Positions 55,651 through 63,746 of a stretch of 64,000 bases of DNA are shown here, piece by piece. The notes beneath the pieces are model-generated. The model made no database searches. It saw only the letters and a list, made by a program, of their open reading frames with translations, and was not told where the DNA came from. The position numbers were made by a program, and so were the translations under genes. Origin of the DNA: Tsukamurella asaccharolytica (GTDB lineage Bacteria; Actinomycetota; Actinomycetes; Mycobacteriales; Mycobacteriaceae). Location of the stretch: the NCBI RefSeq assembly GCF_007858435.1, contig NZ_VIGW01000007.1, forward strand, positions 62,001 to 126,000, written 5' to 3'. Every line of letters begins with the position of its first letter. Position 1 is the first letter of the stretch.

Positions 55651-56451
55651 ATGACCGAAGCACTCCTGATCGAGCGTGACGGCCCCGTCGTCACCTGGAC
55701 CCTGAACGACCCCGCCGCGCGGAACCCCGTCTCCGACGAGACGATGATCGAGGCCATCGAGCGCGCGGTGAACGAGGTGAACCACGACGACGAGGTGCGG
55801 GTGGCGATCCTCACGGGCGCCGGGTCGGCGTTCAGCTCGGGCGGCAACGTCAAACACATGCGCGACAAGGAGGGCATGTTCGGCGGTACCGCCGCGCAGC
55901 AGCGGCAGGGCTACCGGCACGGTATCCAGCGCATCCCACGCGCGCTGTACCACTGCGAGGTCCCGACGGTGGCGGCGGTGAACGGCCCGGCGATCGGCGC
56001 AGGATGCGACCTTGCCATGATGTGCGACCTGCGGGTCGCGTCCACGAAGGCGGTCTTCGCCGAGAGCTTCGTCAAGGTAGGGCTCATCCCGGGGGACGGC
56101 GGCGCGTGGCTGCTGCCGCGGATCGTCGGGATGGCCCGGGCGACGGAGATGGCGCTCACGGGCGAGGCCGTCGACGCGGCGACCGCCCTCGACTGGGGCA
56201 TGGTGTCCAGTGTCGTCGAGCCCGATGAACTGCTCGTCGCGGCCCGCGCGCTCGCGGACCGCGTGGCGGCGAATCCCCCACAGGCGCTGCGAATGACGAA
56301 GCGCCTGTTGCGGGAGGGCCAGCACCAGAGTCTCGAGGCGCTGCTCGAACTCTCCGCCGCGATGCAGACCATCGCGCACTCCACGGCCGATCATCACGAG
56401 GCGGTCGCCGCGATGCTCGACAAGCGCCCGCCCCGGTTCACGGGGAACTGA
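55651..56451 (+). CDS. enoyl-CoA hydratase/isomerase family protein
   Basis: This 266-residue crotonase-fold enzyme acts on acyl-CoA thioesters. The oxyanion-hole segment GAGSAFSSGGNVKHM and NGPAIGAGCDLAMMCDLRVAS are clear, and the second catalytic-acid region (ESFVKVGLIPGDGGAWLLPR) contains the second glycine-rich turn but an Asp where typical hydratases have Glu, so an isomerase or other crotonase reaction is possible. Next to it is the KsdD-like flavoprotein gene, suggesting lipid or steroid side-chain breakdown. Confidence 0.85.
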   Translation: MTEALLIERDGPVVTWTLNDPAARNPVSDETMIEAIERAVNEVNHDDEVRVAILTGAGSAFSSGGNVKHMRDKEGMFGGTAAQQRQGYRHGIQRIPRALYHCEVPTVAAVNGPAIGAGCDLAMMCDLRVASTKAVFAESFVKVGLIPGDGGAWLLPRIVGMARATEMALTGEAVDAATALDWGMVSSVVEPDELLVAARALADRVAANPPQALRMTKRLLREGQHQSLEALLELSAAMQTIAHSTADHHEAVAAMLDKRPPRFTGN

Positions 56452-56502: not shown

Positions 56503-58122
56503 ATGATGCAGGAGTGGGACGCGACGGCCGACGTGGTAGTGGTCGGCTACGGCGGCGCGGGGGTAGCAGCCGCACTGGCCGCCCGTGAGTCCGGCGCCGA
56601 GGTGCTCGCACTCGACCGTTACCTCGGCGGCGGCGCGACGAACCTCTCCGGCGGGATCGTCTACGCGGGCGGTAGAACCCGGATTCAGCGCGCCGCCGGC
56701 GTCGAGGACGACGTCGAGAACATGTTCTCCTATCTGCGCCTCGAGGTGGGCGACGCCGTGTCGGAGGAGACGCTGCGACAGTTCTGCGAGCAGTCCCCCG
56801 CCATGGTCGACTGGCTGATGGACCACGGCGTGCCGTTCGACCCGTCACTCTGCCCGTTCAAGACGTCCTACCCCACCGACGATTACTACCTGTACTTCTC
56901 GGGCAGCGAGAACTCCGGCGGCTTTCGCGACGGTGCGGCACCTCGCCAGCGGGGCCACCGCGCCCACGGGCCGGGCGTCTCAGGCAAGAAGCTGTACGGC
57001 CCGCTCGCGGCGTCGGCGGCCGCCCGCGGCATCCGTGTGCGCACCGGCACGAGGGCGACCGGGCTCGTTGTGGAGGACGGCCGGGTCGTGGGCGTCGAGG
57101 CGGTCACGATCGAGCACGCGCCGGCCGCCGTCCGCCGACGGTTCGCCGTGCTCACCCGGATCTCGGCGAAGCCGGGTGTCTACCACCAGGGCCTGCGCGC
57201 GACGATGCAGCGGCTCCTGGACCGGATCGAGCGTCGCCACGGCCGGCCGATCCGGATCCGCGCCCGCTCGGGCGTCGTCCTGAGTACCGGCGGCTTCATC
57301 GCCAACGGCGCGATGGTGCGCGAGCACGCACCGGGCTACCCCTGGGAGGAGGGCCTCCCGCTGGGCACCGCGGGCGACGACGGCAGCGGCATCGCACTGG
57401 GCCGCTCGGTGGGCGGCGCGACGGACCGGATGGACTCGCTGTCGAACTGGCGGTTCATCGCCCCGCCCAGCGCCTACCTCGGCGCGCTCGCGGTCGACGC
57501 GGACGGGCGGCGGATGGTCGACGAGTCCCGCTACGGCGCCGCGCTGGGCGCCGCCATCGCCGAGGCGCCCGGGCACCGCGCCTGGCTGCTGGTCGACGCC
57601 GACCTCGCGGCGCGGGCCCGCGGGCAGCTGGGCGAGCAGACGGTGTGGTTCCAGCGGCTCCAGCTCGAGCGGCTGCTCCGCATCGGCAGCGTCTCCGCAC
57701 CCACCGTCGAGGAGGCCGCGCGGCGCGCCGGCGTCGACCCCTCCGGGCTGCGGCAGACCGTCGATGCGCACAACGACGCGATCGCGCAGGGCCGGCCGGA
57801 TCCGCTCGGCAAGCCCGACGACCTGCGCACGCCCGCCCTGAAGGCACCGTTCACCCTGCTCGACATCTCGTTCACGAACCGGATGACCTATCCCATGCCG
57901 ATGCTCACCCTGGGCGGCCTCGTCGTCGACGAGCGTTCCGGCGCGGTGCGCACCGGGGCGGGCGAGGTGGTCGCCGGGCTGTTCGCCGCCGGCCGCACCG
58001 CCGTCGGTATCTGCTCGAACTCGTACGTCAGCGGACTCTCCCTCGCCGACTGCATCTTCTCCGGCCGGCGCGCCGGATCGCACGCAGCCGTGGCGCAGTC
58101 CAGCGTGCGCGACGAGGCCTAG
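56503..58122 (+). CDS. FAD-dependent oxidoreductase, KsdD/fumarate-reductase-like
   Basis: This 539-residue flavoprotein of the FAD_binding_2 family opens with the dinucleotide fold VVVVGYGGAGVAAALAARES and LDRYLGGGATNLSGG. The C-terminal FAD clamp is GLFAAGRTAVGICSNSYVSG. 3-Ketosteroid-delta-1-dehydrogenases and related dehydrogenases share this plan. Neither the catalytic Tyr set nor the steroid specificity can be confirmed by eye. A KstR-like operator lies at its promoter and an enoyl-CoA hydratase gene precedes it by 51 bases, which favours a steroid or fatty-acid role. Confidence 0.8.
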   Translation: MMQEWDATADVVVVGYGGAGVAAALAARESGAEVLALDRYLGGGATNLSGGIVYAGGRTRIQRAAGVEDDVENMFSYLRLEVGDAVSEETLRQFCEQSPAMVDWLMDHGVPFDPSLCPFKTSYPTDDYYLYFSGSENSGGFRDGAAPRQRGHRAHGPGVSGKKLYGPLAASAAARGIRVRTGTRATGLVVEDGRVVGVEAVTIEHAPAAVRRRFAVLTRISAKPGVYHQGLRATMQRLLDRIERRHGRPIRIRARSGVVLSTGGFIANGAMVREHAPGYPWEEGLPLGTAGDDGSGIALGRSVGGATDRMDSLSNWRFIAPPSAYLGALAVDADGRRMVDESRYGAALGAAIAEAPGHRAWLLVDADLAARARGQLGEQTVWFQRLQLERLLRIGSVSAPTVEEAARRAGVDPSGLRQTVDAHNDAIAQGRPDPLGKPDDLRTPALKAPFTLLDISFTNRMTYPMPMLTLGGLVVDERSGAVRTGAGEVVAGLFAAGRTAVGICSNSYVSGLSLADCIFSGRRAGSHAAVAQSSVRDEA

Positions 58123-58718
58123 CGACGCTCCCCGGCGGGCAGGGCCGGGGCCATCACCCAGAGAACCCGGGCACCGTCCGGTCCGGCCGCGAAGACGTGG
58201 GGCCGTACCGGGTCGAAGGTCATGGCGTCGCCGACGCCCAGCTCGACGCTCGGCTGCGGAGGGAAGGCGAGACGCAGCGTGCCGTGCTGCACCAGCACGA
58301 ACGACACCTCCGCGGGCAGAGCGTAGGCATCGTCGCCGCTGCCTCCGCCCGGCGCGATGTGGCTGAGCAGCACCTGGACCCGCCGCTCCCCCGACGGCGT
58401 GAGCAGGAACTCGGAGAGACCCTCGCCGCCGAACCGGACCGACGGGTAGGCGTCTGCGCGGACGACCGAGCTCGCCGCGCCACCGTTGAAGAGGGAACCG
58501 ACGGGCACGTCCAGCGCGTCGCACCAGCTCACCAACACCGCCATCGACGGTGCCGCCAGGCCCCGCTCCACCTTCGAGAGATAGCCCTTGGTGACGCCGA
58601 TGCGCTCAGCGACGTCCGCGAGCGTCAGGCGTCGAGCACTGCGCGCCGCCTTCAGCGCCGCTCCGACCTGATCCGGCACAGGCAGGTCCGCTCCCACTCC
58701 CGATGCAGCTACATCCAA
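58119..58718 (-). CDS. XRE-family regulator with cupin domain (arginine/amine locus)
   Basis: This 199-residue protein has a helix-turn-helix (VGAALKAARSARRLTLADVA, RIGVTKGYLSKVERGLAAPS) and a C-terminal cupin (about 115-190: VQVLLSHIAPGGG, EVSFVLVQHGTLRLAFPPQ). It is divergent from the ureohydrolase operon and shares a 7-bp palindrome upstream. TTG 58718 has AAAGGA about 9 bases before it; GTG 58697 is the alternative. It probably senses a pathway intermediate and controls the operon. Confidence 0.8.
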   Translation of the reverse strand: MDVAASGVGADLPVPDQVGAALKAARSARRLTLADVAERIGVTKGYLSKVERGLAAPSMAVLVSWCDALDVPVGSLFNGGAASSVVRADAYPSVRFGGEGLSEFLLTPSGERRVQVLLSHIAPGGGSGDDAYALPAEVSFVLVQHGTLRLAFPPQPSVELGVGDAMTFDPVRPHVFAAGPDGARVLWVMAPALPAGERR

Positions 58719-58723
58719 CAGAT

Positions 58724-58740
58724 GTTTCCTTTCAGGAAAC
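58724..58740. promoter_or_regulatory. perfect operator palindrome of the XRE-cupin regulator
   Basis: GTTTCCT-TTC-AGGAAAC is a perfect 7-bp inverted repeat, overlapping the regulator's ribosome site and lying 5 bases upstream of the -35 box of the divergent operon. A position between the two divergent promoters is expected for its operator. Confidence 0.7.
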
Positions 58741-58745
58741 TCAAG

Positions 58746-58774
58746 TTGACAAGTCGGTCGATGTCCCACACTAT
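58746..58774 (+). promoter_or_regulatory. promoter of the ureohydrolase operon
   Basis: A perfect TTGACA (58746-58751) is 17 bases from CACTAT (58769-58774). The start would be about 58781, some 37 bases before the GTG. TGTGA-TCCGCC-CCACA at 58774-58789, one mismatch from a CRP/GlxR site, overlaps the start point. Confidence 0.6.
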
Positions 58775-58817
58775 GTGATCCGCCCCACAGACGCAGCTCC
58801 TGCGAGAGGATCCCTTC

Positions 58818-59798
58818 GTGTCCGACGAAATCCAGCGCCCCGCTCAGCCTCGCGGCCCGGTGGATGCGAGCCTCGTGCCCCGCTACTGCGGGCCGGCGAC
58901 CTTCGCCCGCCTGCCCCGCCTCGACGAGGTCGACGGCGCCGCCGTCGCGGTCCTCGGGATCCCCTTCGACACCGGGGTCAGCTACCGTCCCGGCGCGCGG
59001 TTCGGGCCCGGCCACATCCGGGCGTCGTCGAAGCTGCTGCGCCCCTACAACCCCGCCCTCGACGTCTCGCCGTTCGCCGTGCACCAGGTCGCCGATGCGG
59101 GCGACCTCGCGGTCAACCCGTTCGACATCGAGGAGGCGCTCGGCACCGTGCAGGCTGAGGTGTCCCGACTGCGTTCGAGCGGGTCGAAGGTGCTCACCCT
59201 CGGCGGCGATCACACGCTCGCGCTGCCCATCCTGCGCGCCGTCGCCGCCGATCGCGGTCCCGTCGCCGTGCTGCACTTCGACGCGCACCTCGACACCTGG
59301 GACACCTACTTCGGCGCCCCGTACACGCACGGCACCCCGTTCCGGCGGGCCAGCGAGGAAGGGCTGATCGACCTCGAGCGCTCGATGCACATCGGCATCC
59401 GCGGCCCGCTCTACGGCGAGCAGGATCTCGCCGCCGACGGCGTGCTCGGCTTCCAGGTGATCCGGTCCGACGACTACGAGAACGACGGGCTCGCGAGCGT
59501 GATCGAGCGCATGCGCCGTCGCCTCGCCGGGCCCGACGGTGCCGGCGGCCCCGTCTACGTCTCCGTCGACATCGACGTACTCGACCCGGCCCACGCGCCC
59601 GGCACCGGCACCCCCGAGGCCGGCGGCATGACCAGCCGCGAGCTCCTCAACACCATCCGCGCCCTGGTCGGCACGGACGTGGTGGGCGCCGACGTCGTCG
59701 AGGTCGCACCGCCCTACGACCACGCCGAGCTGACCGGCATCGCGGCGGCCCACGTGGCCTACGAGTTGCTCTCGGTGCTCGCGGTGAACGCCCGGTGA
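58818..59798 (+). CDS. ureohydrolase (agmatinase/guanidinobutyrase family)
   Basis: This 326-residue Mn-dependent enzyme splits urea from a guanidino compound. The binuclear metal ligands are all present: His132 (GGDHTL), Asp155, His157 and Asp159 (HFDAHLDTW), Asp251 and Asp253 ([10 protein letters not shown]). THGTPFRRA is typical of agmatinase and guanidinobutyrase rather than arginase. Given the DavA/DavB-like genes downstream, 4-guanidinobutyrate is the most likely substrate, giving GABA and urea. Start GTG with GAGAGGA 8 bases upstream; its last four bases overlap the permease start. Confidence 0.9.
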
Positions 59799-61234
59799 GC
59801 GGCACGTTCAGCGAGCGCCTGCTCGCCCGCAAGCCCGTCGACCGCATCCTGGCGGACAGCGCCGCCCCGCACGATGGGCCGCAGCTCAAGCGGTCGATGG
59901 GTCTCGGGCATCTCACCGCGCTGTCGATCGGCGCCTCCCTCGGCACCGGCATCTTCGTCATCCTGGGCGAGGCGACGCCGGACGCCGGGCCCGCGGTGAT
60001 CGTCGCGTTCATCCTCGCAGCGGTGACCGCGCTGTTCTCCGCGCTCTCGTACGCGGAGATGGCGGGCACCATCCCCGTCTCGGGCAGCTCCTACTCCTAC
60101 GCCTACGCCACGATCGGTGAGCTCTTCGCGTGGGTCTGCGGATGGTGCCTGCTGCTCGAATACGGCGTCTCCGTGGCGGCGGTCGCCGTCGGGTGGGGGC
60201 AGTACATCAACGAGCTGCTGCGCACCCTGTTCGACGTCGAGTTGCCGACCGCGATCACCGCGCCGCCGGGCGACGGCGGCGTCGTCAACATCCCCGCGAT
60301 GGTGATCGTCGCGCTCGCCTGCCTGGTGCTGGTGGGCGGGGCCACGGAGAGCGCGCGGCTCAACACCGCGATGGTGATCCTCAAGGTCTTCGTGCTGGTC
60401 TTCTTCTGCGTCATCGCGTTCACTGCGTTCGACGCGGGCAACCTCGAGCCCTTCATGCCCTTCGGCATCGGCGGGGTCACCGCCGCGGCCGCGATGGTGT
60501 TCTTCTCCTACATCGGTTTCGACGCCGCCTCCACGGCGGGCAACGAGGCGAAGAACCCCACCCGCGATCTGCCGCGCGCGATCATCCTCTCGCTCGGCAT
60601 CATCACTGTGCTCTACTGTCTCGTCGCGCTCGCCGCAGTGGGCGCGATGCCCTGGCAGGAGTTCGGCGGCACCGAGGCCTCGCTCGCGAAGGTCCTGACC
60701 GACGTCACGCAGAGCACCTGGCCGTCCGTGGTCCTGTCGATCGGCGCGGTCATCGCGATCGCCAGCGTGGTGCTCGCCGTCCTGTACGGCCAGACCCGCA
60801 TCCTGTACACGATGGGGAGCGACGGCCTCGTGCCTCGCGTCTTCGCCAAGGTCAACCCGCGCACGTTCGTCCCGGTCCGCAACATCCTCATCGTCGGCAC
60901 TCTGGTTGCGCTGCTCGCGGGTCTCGTCCCGCTCGGCGAGCTGGCGAACGCCACCTCGATCGGCTCGCTGTTCGCGTTCGCGCTGGTCAACATCGGCGTG
61001 ATCGTGCTCCGCTACACACGTCCCGAACTGCCCCGCACGTTCAAGACCCCGCTGTTCCCGCTCGTCCCCGTCCTCGGCGTCGTGTTCTGCGTCCTGCTGA
61101 TGTTCCAGATGAAGGCGCCCACGTGGATCGCCTTCGGGCTGTGGACCCTCGTCGGCCTCGCCGTGTACTTCGCCTACGGCTACCGGAACTCGCGGCTCCG
61201 CGGCGAGAAGGACCTCCCGAAGGCGGCGCTATGA
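59795..61234 (+). CDS. APC-family cationic amino-acid permease
   Basis: This 479-residue transporter has about 12-13 helices. The CAT-type APC pattern is [40 protein letters not shown] and [20 protein letters not shown], followed by [15 protein letters not shown] members take up arginine, lysine or related amines, which suits the operon. The GTG start overlaps the ureohydrolase stop and its own stop overlaps the amidase ATG (ATGA). Confidence 0.87.
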
Positions 61235-62022
61235 CGGTCACCGTCGGGATGTACCAGGGGCCGGCGGGACTCGGTCCGACGCCGGACGTCGCGCGGAACC
61301 TGGCGGCGATCGACGACGCCGCCGCCCGCGCCGCGGCCGAGGGCGCGCGGGTGCTGGTCACGCCCGAGTTGTCGGTCACCGGGTACGACATCGGCGCGGC
61401 CGCGACGGAACTCGCCCGCCCGCGCGGCGGGGAGTACCACGAGGCGATCGCCGGCATCGCGCGCCGCAACGGCGTGACCGTCGTGGCCGGGTACCCGGAG
61501 CGAGACGGGGGCCGGGTCTTCAACGCCGCCACCGTGATCGCGCCCGACGGGGCCGAGCTCGCGCACTACCGCAAGTCCCACCTGTTCGGCGACCTCGACC
61601 GCGTCGTCTTCACCCCGGGCGGCGAGCTGCCCGTGACCTTCCCCCTCGGAGACCTGACCTGCGGACTGCTCATCTGCTACGACGTGGAGTTCCCCGAGGC
61701 CGTCCGCGCCCACGCGGACGCCGGCACCGACCTGCTCCTGATCCCGACCGGCCTCATGGAGCCCTTCGGCCGGATAGCCGAGCTGGTCGTGCCGGTGCGG
61801 GCCTTCGAGAGCCAGCTGTACATCGCCTACACCAACCACTGCGGCCGCGAGACCTCGCTCGAGTACTGCGGCCTGAGCACCGCGGCCGCGCCCGACGGCG
61901 AGGTCGTGGCCCGCGCCGGGCGCGCGGAGGAGCTACTCACCTTCACCGCCGACCCCGAGGCGCTGCGGGAGGCCCGCATCGCCAACACCTACCTGCGCGA
62001 CCGGCGCACCGACCTGTACTGA
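61231..62022 (+). CDS. carbon-nitrogen hydrolase, DavA-like omega-amidase
   Basis: This 263-residue nitrilase-superfamily enzyme has the triad Glu46 (TPELSVTGYD), Lys115 (YRKSHLFGDLDR) and Cys149 (LLICYDVEFPE). The stretches HLFGDLDRVVFTPGG and NHCGRETSLEYCGLS are close to 5-aminovaleramide amidase DavA of Pseudomonas. In this operon the natural substrate would be 4-guanidinobutyramide (from arginine) or 5-aminovaleramide (from lysine), hydrolysed to the acid plus ammonia. Confidence 0.87.
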   Translation: MTVTVGMYQGPAGLGPTPDVARNLAAIDDAAARAAAEGARVLVTPELSVTGYDIGAAATELARPRGGEYHEAIAGIARRNGVTVVAGYPERDGGRVFNAATVIAPDGAELAHYRKSHLFGDLDRVVFTPGGELPVTFPLGDLTCGLLICYDVEFPEAVRAHADAGTDLLLIPTGLMEPFGRIAELVVPVRAFESQLYIAYTNHCGRETSLEYCGLSTAAAPDGEVVARAGRAEELLTFTADPEALREARIANTYLRDRRTDLY

Positions 62023-62045
62023 GCCCCGCCACCCCAGGAGCCCGC

Positions 62046-63746
62046 ATGACACAACCCGCCATGCCCGCCCACGGCCCGTCCGGATCGGATGCGCCCCTGA
62101 CCATGTTCGGCCCGGACTTCCCGTTCGCCTACGACGACTGGGTCACCCACCCCGACGGCCTCGGCAGCGTCCCCGAGGCCGCGCTCGGCACCGAGGTCGC
62201 CGTGATCGGCGCGGGCCTCGCCGGACTCACCACCGCGTACGAGCTGGCCCGGATCGGGCTGAAACCCGTGGTGTACGAGGCCGACCGGATCGGCGGGCGG
62301 ATGCGCAGCGAACGTTTCGAGGGCTACGACGACGACCTCGTCGCGGAAATGGGCGCCATGCGATTCCCGCCCTCGTCGACGACCCTGCAGCACTACCTGG
62401 ACCTCGCGGGGCTGCGCACCGAGCCCTTCCCCAACCCCCTCGCCGAGGCGACGCCCAGCACCGTCATCGACCTCAAGGGCCGCAGCCACTACGCCCGCAC
62501 CGCCGCCGACCTTCCGCCCGAGTTCGCCGAGGTCGCCCGCGCGTGGGACGCCAGCCTCGCCGATTACGCCGATGCCGCTGAGCTGCAGGACGCGATCCGC
62601 GCCCGCGATGCGGGGCGCATCCGGGCCGTGTGGTCGAAGCTCGTCGAGGAGCTCGATGACCAGACCTTCTACGGCTTCCTCACCGCATCGAAGCACTTCC
62701 GCTCCTTCGCGCACCGGGAACTGTTCGGACAGGTCGGATTCGGCACCGGCGGCTGGGACACCGACTACCCCAACTCGATGCTCGAGATCCTGCGCGTGAC
62801 CTGCACCGCCGCGGACGACGAGCACCGCAGCATCGTCGGGGGCGCGGACCTGCTGCCGAAGCACCTGTGGGAGAGCCCGTTCGACGGTGCGCGGTCGGTG
62901 CGCGAGCTCAACGGCGGCACGCACCGGCCCGCGGTCACCGCGATCCGGCGCACGGCGGGCCCGGGCGGTGCGCCGCGGTACACGCTCGTCGATGCCGGCG
63001 GCGAGACCCGCACGTACCCGGCGGCGATCTTCACCGGGCAGGCATGGATGCTGCTCAACACCATCGACTGCGACGACGACCTGCTGCCGATCGACCACTG
63101 GACCGCGATCGAGCGCACCCACTACATGGGCAGCTCGAAGGTGTTCGCGCTGGTCGATCGTCCCTTCTGGCGCGATGTCGATCCCGCGACGGGGCGCGAC
63201 ACGATGTCGATGACCCTGACCGACCGGATGAGCCGCGGCACCTACCTTCTCGACCACGGCCCCGACCGTCCCGGCGTCATCTGCCTGTCCTACACCTGGT
63301 CCGACGACTCCCTCAAAGTGCTGCCGCTGGACGTGAACGCACGGCTCGACCTCATGCTCAAGTCGCTCGGCGGGGTCTACCCCGGCGTCGACATCCGCAG
63401 CCACATCATCGCCACGCCCAAGACCGTCTCCTGGGAGACGGAGCGGTACTTCATGGGCGCCTTCAAGGCGAACCTGCCGGGGCACTACCGGTACCAGGAG
63501 CGGCTGTACACGCACTTCATGCAGGAGTCGTTCGACCCGCGGCACCGCGGCTTCTTTCTGGCCGGGGACGACATCTCATGGACCGCGGGGTGGGCCGAGG
63601 GCGCGCTGCAGACCGCGCTCAACGCCGTCTGGGGCGTCGTGCACCACCTCGGCGGACGCGCACCGTCGACCAATCCCGGACCGGGCGACGTCTTCGCCGA
63701 CATCGCCCCGGTCCGGCTCGGCGACGAGCGCGGTACGCGCGCCTGA
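62046..63746 (+). CDS. flavin-dependent L-amino-acid 2-monooxygenase (DavB/arginine monooxygenase-like)
   Basis: This 566-residue FAD enzyme of the amine-oxidase family has GAGLAG (55-60) and aligns with Pseudomonas lysine 2-monooxygenase DavB along its length: FGPDFPFAYDDWVTHPDGLG (21-40), FGQVGFGTGGWDTDYPNSML, DRMSRGTYLLDHG, GDDISWTAGWAEGALQTALN and the closing NPGPGDVF. It decarboxylates and oxidises the amino acid to its amide with O2. Substrate arginine is favoured by the ureohydrolase in the operon; lysine is the alternative. AGGAG 8 bases before the ATG. Confidence 0.88.
   Translation: MTQPAMPAHGPSGSDAPLTMFGPDFPFAYDDWVTHPDGLGSVPEAALGTEVAVIGAGLAGLTTAYELARIGLKPVVYEADRIGGRMRSERFEGYDDDLVAEMGAMRFPPSSTTLQHYLDLAGLRTEPFPNPLAEATPSTVIDLKGRSHYARTAADLPPEFAEVARAWDASLADYADAAELQDAIRARDAGRIRAVWSKLVEELDDQTFYGFLTASKHFRSFAHRELFGQVGFGTGGWDTDYPNSMLEILRVTCTAADDEHRSIVGGADLLPKHLWESPFDGARSVRELNGGTHRPAVTAIRRTAGPGGAPRYTLVDAGGETRTYPAAIFTGQAWMLLNTIDCDDDLLPIDHWTAIERTHYMGSSKVFALVDRPFWRDVDPATGRDTMSMTLTDRMSRGTYLLDHGPDRPGVICLSYTWSDDSLKVLPLDVNARLDLMLKSLGGVYPGVDIRSHIIATPKTVSWETERYFMGAFKANLPGHYRYQERLYTHFMQESFDPRHRGFFLAGDDISWTAGWAEGALQTALNAVWGVVHHLGGRAPSTNPGPGDVFADIAPVRLGDERGTRA

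Follow-up and report, generated by a model that had tools for sequence, protein, structure and literature searches.

The window analysed here, a 64,000-nucleotide stretch of Tsukamurella asaccharolytica DNA (contig NZ_VIGW01000007.1, positions 62,001 to 126,000 of the forward strand), carries a five-gene cluster that, judged by comparison with its relatives, is very probably an operon, with its own regulator, for catabolism through the arginine oxygenase (arginine 2-monooxygenase) pathway. All five open reading frames were found with the positions, order and strands that an earlier note on this DNA had given for a gene set with a divergent regulator; residues of the flavin adenine dinucleotide (FAD) enzyme are numbered as in native 3WE0.

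58119..58697, minus strand: XRE-family helix-turn-helix (HTH) regulator with a cupin-like C-terminal domain; GTG start at 58697, alternative TTG start at 58718
58818..59798, plus strand: ureohydrolase (arginase family), proposed 4-guanidinobutyrase; Pfam Arginase, family motifs, Arg at the position of GbuA R72
59795..61234, plus strand: permease of the amino acid-polyamine-organocation (APC) superfamily, proposed arginine uptake; Pfam AA_permease_2, nearest solved relatives 5oqt/6f34
61231..62022, plus strand: nitrilase-superfamily amidase, proposed 4-guanidinobutyramide hydrolase; CN_hydrolase, E46-K115-C149
62046..63746, plus strand: FAD L-amino acid 2-monooxygenase, proposed arginine type; Amino_oxidase, T237, A254, H258, T417, G515

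In the proposed pathway the permease would bring in arginine, the monooxygenase would convert L-arginine and O2 to 4-guanidinobutyramide, CO2 and water, the amidase would hydrolyse the amide to 4-guanidinobutyrate and ammonia, and the ureohydrolase would split the acid into gamma-aminobutyrate (GABA) and urea. A GABA transaminase, its neighbour resembling succinate semialdehyde dehydrogenase (SSADH) and a urease, all encoded elsewhere in the genome, would complete the breakdown, while the XRE/cupin-like protein would govern the operon from the common divergent promoter region. Model searches of the organism's own genome found the GABA transaminase over its cut-off, followed by the SSADH-like gene, and the urease alpha subunit over its cut-off; they gave no match to arginine deiminase, and the window ureohydrolase was the one arginase-family gene. 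Arginine is proposed as the substrate of the monooxygenase because of its clade, its pocket signature and its gene partners, and on these grounds, together with genome-wide co-occurrence, the earlier note's proposal of an arginine oxygenase locus encoding the steps in the same order, with uptake and regulation, appears well founded.

The arrangement is not a product of chance, since the five-gene order was identical in all eight genus loci inspected (the window, L039, L040, L074 and L147-L150) and the monooxygenase was present in 16/16 genus genomes searched, in one of them cut short by the end of a contig. Four bp are shared at the ureohydrolase/permease junction and again at the permease/amidase junction, giving the 4-base overlaps that the earlier note had described among the first three enzyme-side genes; the amidase and the flavoenzyme are spaced by 23 bp, and third-codon-position GC ranges from 0.88 to 0.97 across the five frames. 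The closest named record, T. tyrosinosolvens NCTC13231, has a monooxygenase 94.7% identical to that of the window and the same gene order. This copy (L074, NZ_LR134452.1, 385,671 bp) lies on a record named plasmid 10, though it is flanked much as in other genus genomes, with metA among the nearby genes, and the record may be a piece of the chromosome.

The arginine oxygenase route is old biochemistry. PMC2242806 cites a 1966 paper whose title fits it, and among open PMC papers none was found joining Tsukamurella, arginine and guanidinobutyrate. With pathway and folds already known, what is new here is the compact, regulated and complete gene set; the comparative additions are a two-set pocket signature, a shared end enzyme and a small group of loci with Asn at position 238.

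The flavin monooxygenase and its pocket

The window monooxygenase matched PF01593 at 167.1 bits. Its best solved relative was 3WE0 (680.3 bits, E 2.5e-203), the L-amino acid oxidase/monooxygenase (L-AAO/MOG) of Pseudomonas sp. AIU 813 (PMC5832979); the next, the Trp 2-monooxygenase 4IV9, was far more distant (206.8 bits, E 6.2e-60). In 3WE0 the charge of the side chain is held by Asp238 and the alpha end by Arg102 and Tyr416, Gln258 works via water, Ala515, Trp516 and Phe473 line the cage, and Cys254, behind Trp516, tunes oxidase versus monooxygenase activity (PMC5832979). R102, W235, D238, Y416, W418, F473 and W516 of 3WE0 are all identical in the aligned window enzyme. The proposed pathway supposes a monooxygenase rather than an oxidase outcome for the window enzyme, in which position 254, Cys in 3WE0, is Ala.

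Pocket residues were compared across 166 rows, made up of 164 loci including the window and two solved chains; L070, in which a fragmentary monooxygenase adjoins a ureohydrolase, was excluded from pocket and tree counts. A first set of 134 rows has T237 and G515, mostly with A254, H258 and T417 (one row ends before 515), and a second set of 28 rows (3WE0 plus 27 loci) has S237, Q258 and A515, position 254 being C, L or F and position 417 being A or S. Only 4IV9, L071, L072 and L073 stand outside both. Fourteen alignment columns separate the two sets at at least 90% within each. The window enzyme belongs to the first set (T237/A254/H258/T417/G515), so that the lysine-type residues S237, Q258 and A515 are replaced in it by T237, H258 and G515. 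In a tree of 62 of the 166 rows, thinned at 86% identity, the second set formed one 13-row clade, supported at 100/100, to which 3WE0 belongs and the window enzyme does not; the root was not fixed, and the first set was not shown to be a single clade. The earlier note had named placement in a lysine- or tryptophan-specific clade as the result that would speak against arginine, and the enzyme lies outside both, being excluded from the 3WE0 clade and far from 4IV9. Its description as DavB-like holds for the family and fails for the clade, the enzyme falling outside that of DavB/3WE0. An arginine-type and a lysine-type monooxygenase occur together in two genomes (L042/L066 in G158 and L057/L069 in G106), which is what a difference in substrate between the sets would lead one to expect.

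Among solved structures the permease is nearest to 5oqt/6f34, an amino acid transporter, and to the cationic amino acid transporters, a kinship that would fit arginine transport. The amidase has the triad Glu46, Lys115 and Cys149 (PF00795, 160.5 bits), and among its nearest solved relatives is 3HKX, which we take to be NitN of Nesterenkonia. A Nesterenkonia aliphatic amidase acts on short-chain amides (PMC3968332). Two amidases encoded near arginine-type monooxygenases in Nesterenkonia (L210 10667-11404 and L213 10727-11449, minus strand) are 82% and 75% identical to 3HKX, respectively, and 4-guanidinobutyramide may be the natural substrate of 3HKX. While 3HKX is known as an aliphatic amidase, a part in arginine use would be a putative role for it.

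Gene partners, the ureohydrolase and rival readings

The partner expected for a guanidino product, a ureohydrolase, is encoded in the window operon and at 24 other loci with the first signature. It was found in the fetched stretch of 25/134 first-set rows and 0/28 second-set rows (Fisher p 0.008, uncorrected for kinship, with flanks that vary and many rows that are near relatives). The 25 include the eight genus loci, the window among them, and a polyketide-type locus, L139. In five loci of family f16 (L051, L053, L054, L056 and L057) the ureohydrolase is on the opposite strand and adjoins the regulator, and three more families show the pairing too (L043, L135 and L143). Eight named loci, drawn from the top 80 among 524 confirmed relatives ranked by likeness to L143 rather than from a random sample, are likewise paired: Kocuria palustris, Auritidibacter ignavus, two Nesterenkonia, Kineococcus vitellinus and a further three, Geminicoccus flavidas, Palleronia pontilimi and Ancylobacter lacus. 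The pairing thus spans two phyla. The residue signature may separate arginine-type from lysine-type enzymes.

In the second-set locus L067 an amidase, a transaminase and an aldehyde dehydrogenase stand in a row, which fits what a lysine route needs; a transaminase was in reach in 3/28 second-set and 6/134 first-set rows, and was rejected as a mark of the lysine type. Transaminase and aldehyde dehydrogenase labels were verified by family search. The label 'PucR' was given by eye and had no match in the family search, and 'Lrp/AsnC-like' is based on weak model matches.

At the level of whole genomes, with an oxygenase counted at at least 63% identity and a ureohydrolase at E <= 1e-90, the ureohydrolase was present in 57/57 genomes with the oxygenase and 68/337 others in a class sample of 394, and in 20/20 and 50/278, respectively, in an order sample of 298; as there is overlap between the two samples and kinship among the genomes, p-values of co-occurrence overstate. 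Where only more distant oxygenases were present, the ureohydrolase accompanied them in 3/8 (class) and 2/7 (order) genomes, G247 among them.

The window ureohydrolase has the motifs GGDH, DAHxD and SxDxDxxDP (PF00491, 313.3 bits), which are on the motif list given for the superfamily in PMC4737276. Its identities to GbuA (44.7%), GpuA (45.3%) and proclavaminate amidinohydrolase (43.3%) are so alike that homology alone does not name its substrate, and its score with the agmatinase model NF002564 (294.5 bits) is below the cut-off of 302. The oxygenase-linked ureohydrolases of the alphaproteobacteria Geminicoccus and Palleronia are of another subfamily and 70% identical to GbuA, so that in these loci a close relation of a characterised guanidinobutyrase takes the position. 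Arg72 of GbuA is considered able to meet a carboxylate (PMC9772407), and Arg occupies this position in 25/26 monooxygenase-linked ureohydrolases read, including that of the window (a 41% second copy in L056 was set aside).

Members of the window's ureohydrolase subfamily were also examined in 20 chosen loci where they stand apart from any oxygenase. A thiamine diphosphate (ThDP) enzyme adjoins the ureohydrolase in 9/20 of these, five of the nine being from one genus (g39). Of three ThDP enzymes scanned, the 5-guanidino-2-oxopentanoate decarboxylase model was the best match in two (481.5 and 348.0) and second best in one (293.4). All three scores are below the model cut-off of 500, making these enzymes candidate rather than established 2-ketoarginine decarboxylases. 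The ThDP enzyme of L256 is followed by an aldehyde dehydrogenase that exceeds the aminobutyraldehyde dehydrogenase cut-off. Three of these loci, each combining a ureohydrolase of the window subfamily, a ThDP decarboxylase-like gene and transporters, are probable arginine transaminase-type clusters in actinobacteria:

L256, 6517-13457
L251, 6795-10888
L263, 6495-8093 and around

The ThDP-linked loci thus resemble the other arginine route ending in 4-guanidinobutyrate. In the arginine transaminase/dehydrogenase route with GbuA of P. aeruginosa (PMC2242806), 4-guanidinobutyrate is likewise reached and then yields GABA and urea, but from a front end of transaminase or oxidase, 2-ketoarginine decarboxylase and aldehyde dehydrogenase, whereas the window has an oxygenase and an amidase. 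Monooxygenase, ureohydrolase and ThDP decarboxylase-like gene are combined in L043, L143 and L216, where both arginine front ends are perhaps in one place.

These comparisons bear on the possibility that the locus serves a lysine (or ornithine) oxygenase route to 5-aminovalerate (or, from ornithine, GABA), with the ureohydrolase acting on some other substrate such as agmatine. The best solved relative, 3WE0, does prefer ornithine and lysine over arginine, with monooxygenase kcat/Km values of 200, 74 and 24, respectively (PMC5832979), and the window ureohydrolase exceeds the cut-off of the agmatinase model. The window enzyme, however, lies outside the 3WE0 clade with another pocket signature, a ureohydrolase is in reach in 0/27 lysine-type loci, and oxygenase and ureohydrolase co-occur in 57/57 and 20/20 genomes. 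A speA-type arginine decarboxylase was not found over cut-off in the organism's own genome (best 66.3 bits; other decarboxylase families were not searched). Such a route is very unlikely; a ureohydrolase acting only on agmatine, the other outcome that the earlier note had set against its proposal, is unlikely too, in view of the co-occurrence, the 2-ketoarginine-decarboxylase-like neighbours and the speA result.

Under the arginine oxygenase reading the last two steps could also run in reverse, the ureohydrolase acting first on 4-guanidinobutyramide and the amidase then on 4-aminobutyramide. The ureohydrolase is indeed the first gene of the operon, and its subfamily has varied partners, including those of L139. 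Beside 2-ketoarginine-decarboxylase-like and aldehyde-dehydrogenase genes, however, the same subfamily would meet the free acid, GbuA-like enzymes hold the same place in Geminicoccus and Palleronia, and the Arg at the R72 position argues weakly in the same direction, which makes a swapped order very improbable.

Among the closest known systems, an arginine monooxygenase and a 4-guanidinobutyramide hydrolase are described from azalomycin-type Streptomyces (PMC5082578, PMC10322714), and their two reactions are the same as the first two proposed for the window; in Streptomyces the acid then passes to a coenzyme A ligase and a polyketide synthase (PKS), where a ureohydrolase is proposed for the window. 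Monooxygenases of family f33, which we infer to be Streptomyces from context and from the named loci L225 and L229, are among the closest outside the genus (66-70%) and have an adjoining amidase; a ureohydrolase was in reach in 0/16 f33 clade-I loci inspected, and a gene labelled Lrp/AsnC-like in 13/16. PKS or adenosine monophosphate (AMP) ligase genes were in reach in 8/134 first-set loci, which hold relatives at 42-61% identity, and fit the known arginine-derived polyketide starters (PMC5082578, PMC10322714). As the family feeds such starters (PMC10322714), the window cluster might supply 4-guanidinobutyrate or GABA for a natural product. This is extremely improbable, since no PKS or AMP-ligase match was found in the window locus or the seven other genus loci inspected, the operon has its own permease and regulator, and it is kept in 16/16 genus genomes. 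The systems of 3WE0 (L-AAO/MOG) and DavB/DavA share with the window the flavoenzyme family, the amidase fold, D238 and the cage residues, but form a separate 100/100 clade, differ at residues 237, 254, 258, 417 and 515, and have no ureohydrolase in reach.

Several findings weigh against a catabolic operon for arginine. Substrate specificity is graded, since the 3WE0 enzyme turns over arginine too, and what links the first signature with arginine is gene partners alone. In 109/134 first-signature loci no ureohydrolase is in reach. The ureohydrolase is also much commoner than the oxygenase (125 versus 57 of 394 genomes), and G247, which has a lysine-type enzyme, has a ureohydrolase elsewhere in its genome. 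The SSADH-like gene scores 525.8 bits, below its cut-off of 646.35. The window ureohydrolase is no GbuA orthologue, grouping with actinobacterial relatives apart from GbuA (Shimodaira-Hasegawa-like approximate likelihood ratio test, SH-aLRT, 94), and it reaches 225.5 bits with the agmatinase model TIGR01230 (cut-off 174.3), a model that also takes in guanidino-acid hydrolases. Where GbuA has Met161 it has Tyr, as does GpuA. The Met161/Tyr157 position was indecisive for separating guanidinobutyrase from guanidinopropionase, as the A. niger guanidinobutyrase (GBase) also has Tyr there (PMC10833137). R72 is kept in L139 as well and is missing in L221, and as proof of a carboxylate substrate it was downgraded to weak. 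The L139 enzyme may act on a finished macrolide, by analogy with DstH, a macrolide-acting enzyme (PMC4737276). In Ancylobacter lacus the ureohydrolase near the amidase and monooxygenase (L221, 5884 onward) has Gly in place of Arg72, hinting at another substrate or step order.

The divergent promoter region and the borders of the locus

Control of the operon by the XRE/cupin-like protein is proposed because of its position and because a non-coding box is kept across two families. The regulator matched HTH_31 and HTH_3 over the Pfam cut-off and Cupin_2 weakly (21.8 bits, cut-off 27.2), and relatives of it occur near the ureohydrolase in other families too. Two elements were noted between the regulator and the ureohydrolase:

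58735..58751, plus strand: conserved non-coding box GGAAACTCAAGTTGACA, candidate operator plus -35 element
58724-58740: 7-bp perfect inverted repeat, overlapping the GGAAACTCAAGTTGACA box

The box pattern GRAAACNCRAGTTGACA is matched exactly in five loci of the genus and four of family f16 and is listed in 10/265 loci, two of these being copies of the window's own; L040, L148 and L149 of the genus and L051 retain the box only partly. It occurs once in the window, against 0.03 expected with at most two mismatches, but the pattern was derived from the same sequences, so that this count is not independent evidence. What carries weight is that the box has survived in two families whose gene order differs. 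The perfect inverted repeat was set aside as the operator, being only partly kept; the right half with TTGACA is retained in relatives. TTGACA is conserved in the divergent region, a -10 element could not be fixed, and a sigma-70 promoter scan of 58600-58900 found none.

Two genes on the same strand as the enzymes lie upstream of the locus:

55651..56451, plus strand: enoyl-CoA hydratase family gene
56503..58122, plus strand: FAD-binding dehydrogenase of the PRK07121 type, over the model cut-off

Both are absent in L147, and the dehydrogenase is absent in L040, L148 and L149; with five-gene relatives lacking one or both, the pair was dropped as members of the system. Downstream, a P450 gene (annotated in L074) is on the opposite strand. 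As the upstream neighbours are inconstant and the P450 is on the other strand, the borders that the earlier note had drawn, 58119..63746, are right.

Loci with Asn238 and wider significance

Asn replaces Asp at position 238 in 2/166 rows, L220 (Arthrobacter sp. efr-133-R2A-120) and L140 (G631), accompanied by changes at 241, 258, 474 and 475. In both loci the monooxygenase belongs to a string of four genes, 60-77% identical gene by gene between the two:

L220, 5251-10659, plus strand: permease, M20 hydrolase, amidase, Asn238 monooxygenase
L140, 4950-10177, numbered so that the monooxygenase is on the plus strand: permease, M20 hydrolase, amidase, Asn238 monooxygenase

The L220 permease scored best with the L-asparagine permease model (648.8, below the cut-off of 773). 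The M20 proteins exceed the hydantoinase/carbamoylase cut-off in both loci (278.0 and 293.4, cut-off 204), and since they also exceed that of the allantoate amidohydrolase subfamily (434.4 and 445.4, cut-off 424), allantoate chemistry is a rival label for them. Among the other 163 loci there was no full-length M20 match (two, L173 and L212, were partial) and no permease match over 200 bits. A D238N mutant of 3WE0 had no detectable activity (PMC5832979), which makes it plausible that Asn238 enzymes have a substrate of their own. An Asn reading a neutral ureido side chain, together with a carbamoyl hydrolase replacing the ureohydrolase, points to citrulline, suggesting for these two loci only a candidate citrulline oxygenase route from citrulline through 4-ureidobutyramide and 4-ureidobutyrate to GABA. 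No citrulline 2-monooxygenase was found in the single search of open PMC papers aimed at one.

A joint scheme can be put forward tentatively, as somewhat short of an even prospect. D238/H258/G515 with a ureohydrolase would denote arginine, D238/Q258/A515 without one lysine, and N238/Q258 with an M20 carbamoylase-family hydrolase and a neutral amino acid permease citrulline (L140 and L220), the last being an undescribed route; the ureohydrolase would be a shared end module, served by an oxygenase or a transaminase-type front end. If this is true, the monooxygenase pocket and the third enzyme change together, and specificity could be read from sequence and neighbours.

In the one annotated genus record inspected, the genes of the operon are labelled 'agmatinase', 'amino acid permease', 'carbon-nitrogen hydrolase family protein' and 'NAD(P)/FAD-dependent oxidoreductase', and with such generic annotation an O2-dependent arginine route is hidden in genome records. 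The route looks common in actinobacteria. The Tsukamurella locus offers all of its parts together, a possible residue signature and named loci in two phyla for testing, and enzymes of this kind are also useful for GABA- or aminovalerate-type building blocks and for polyketide starter units.

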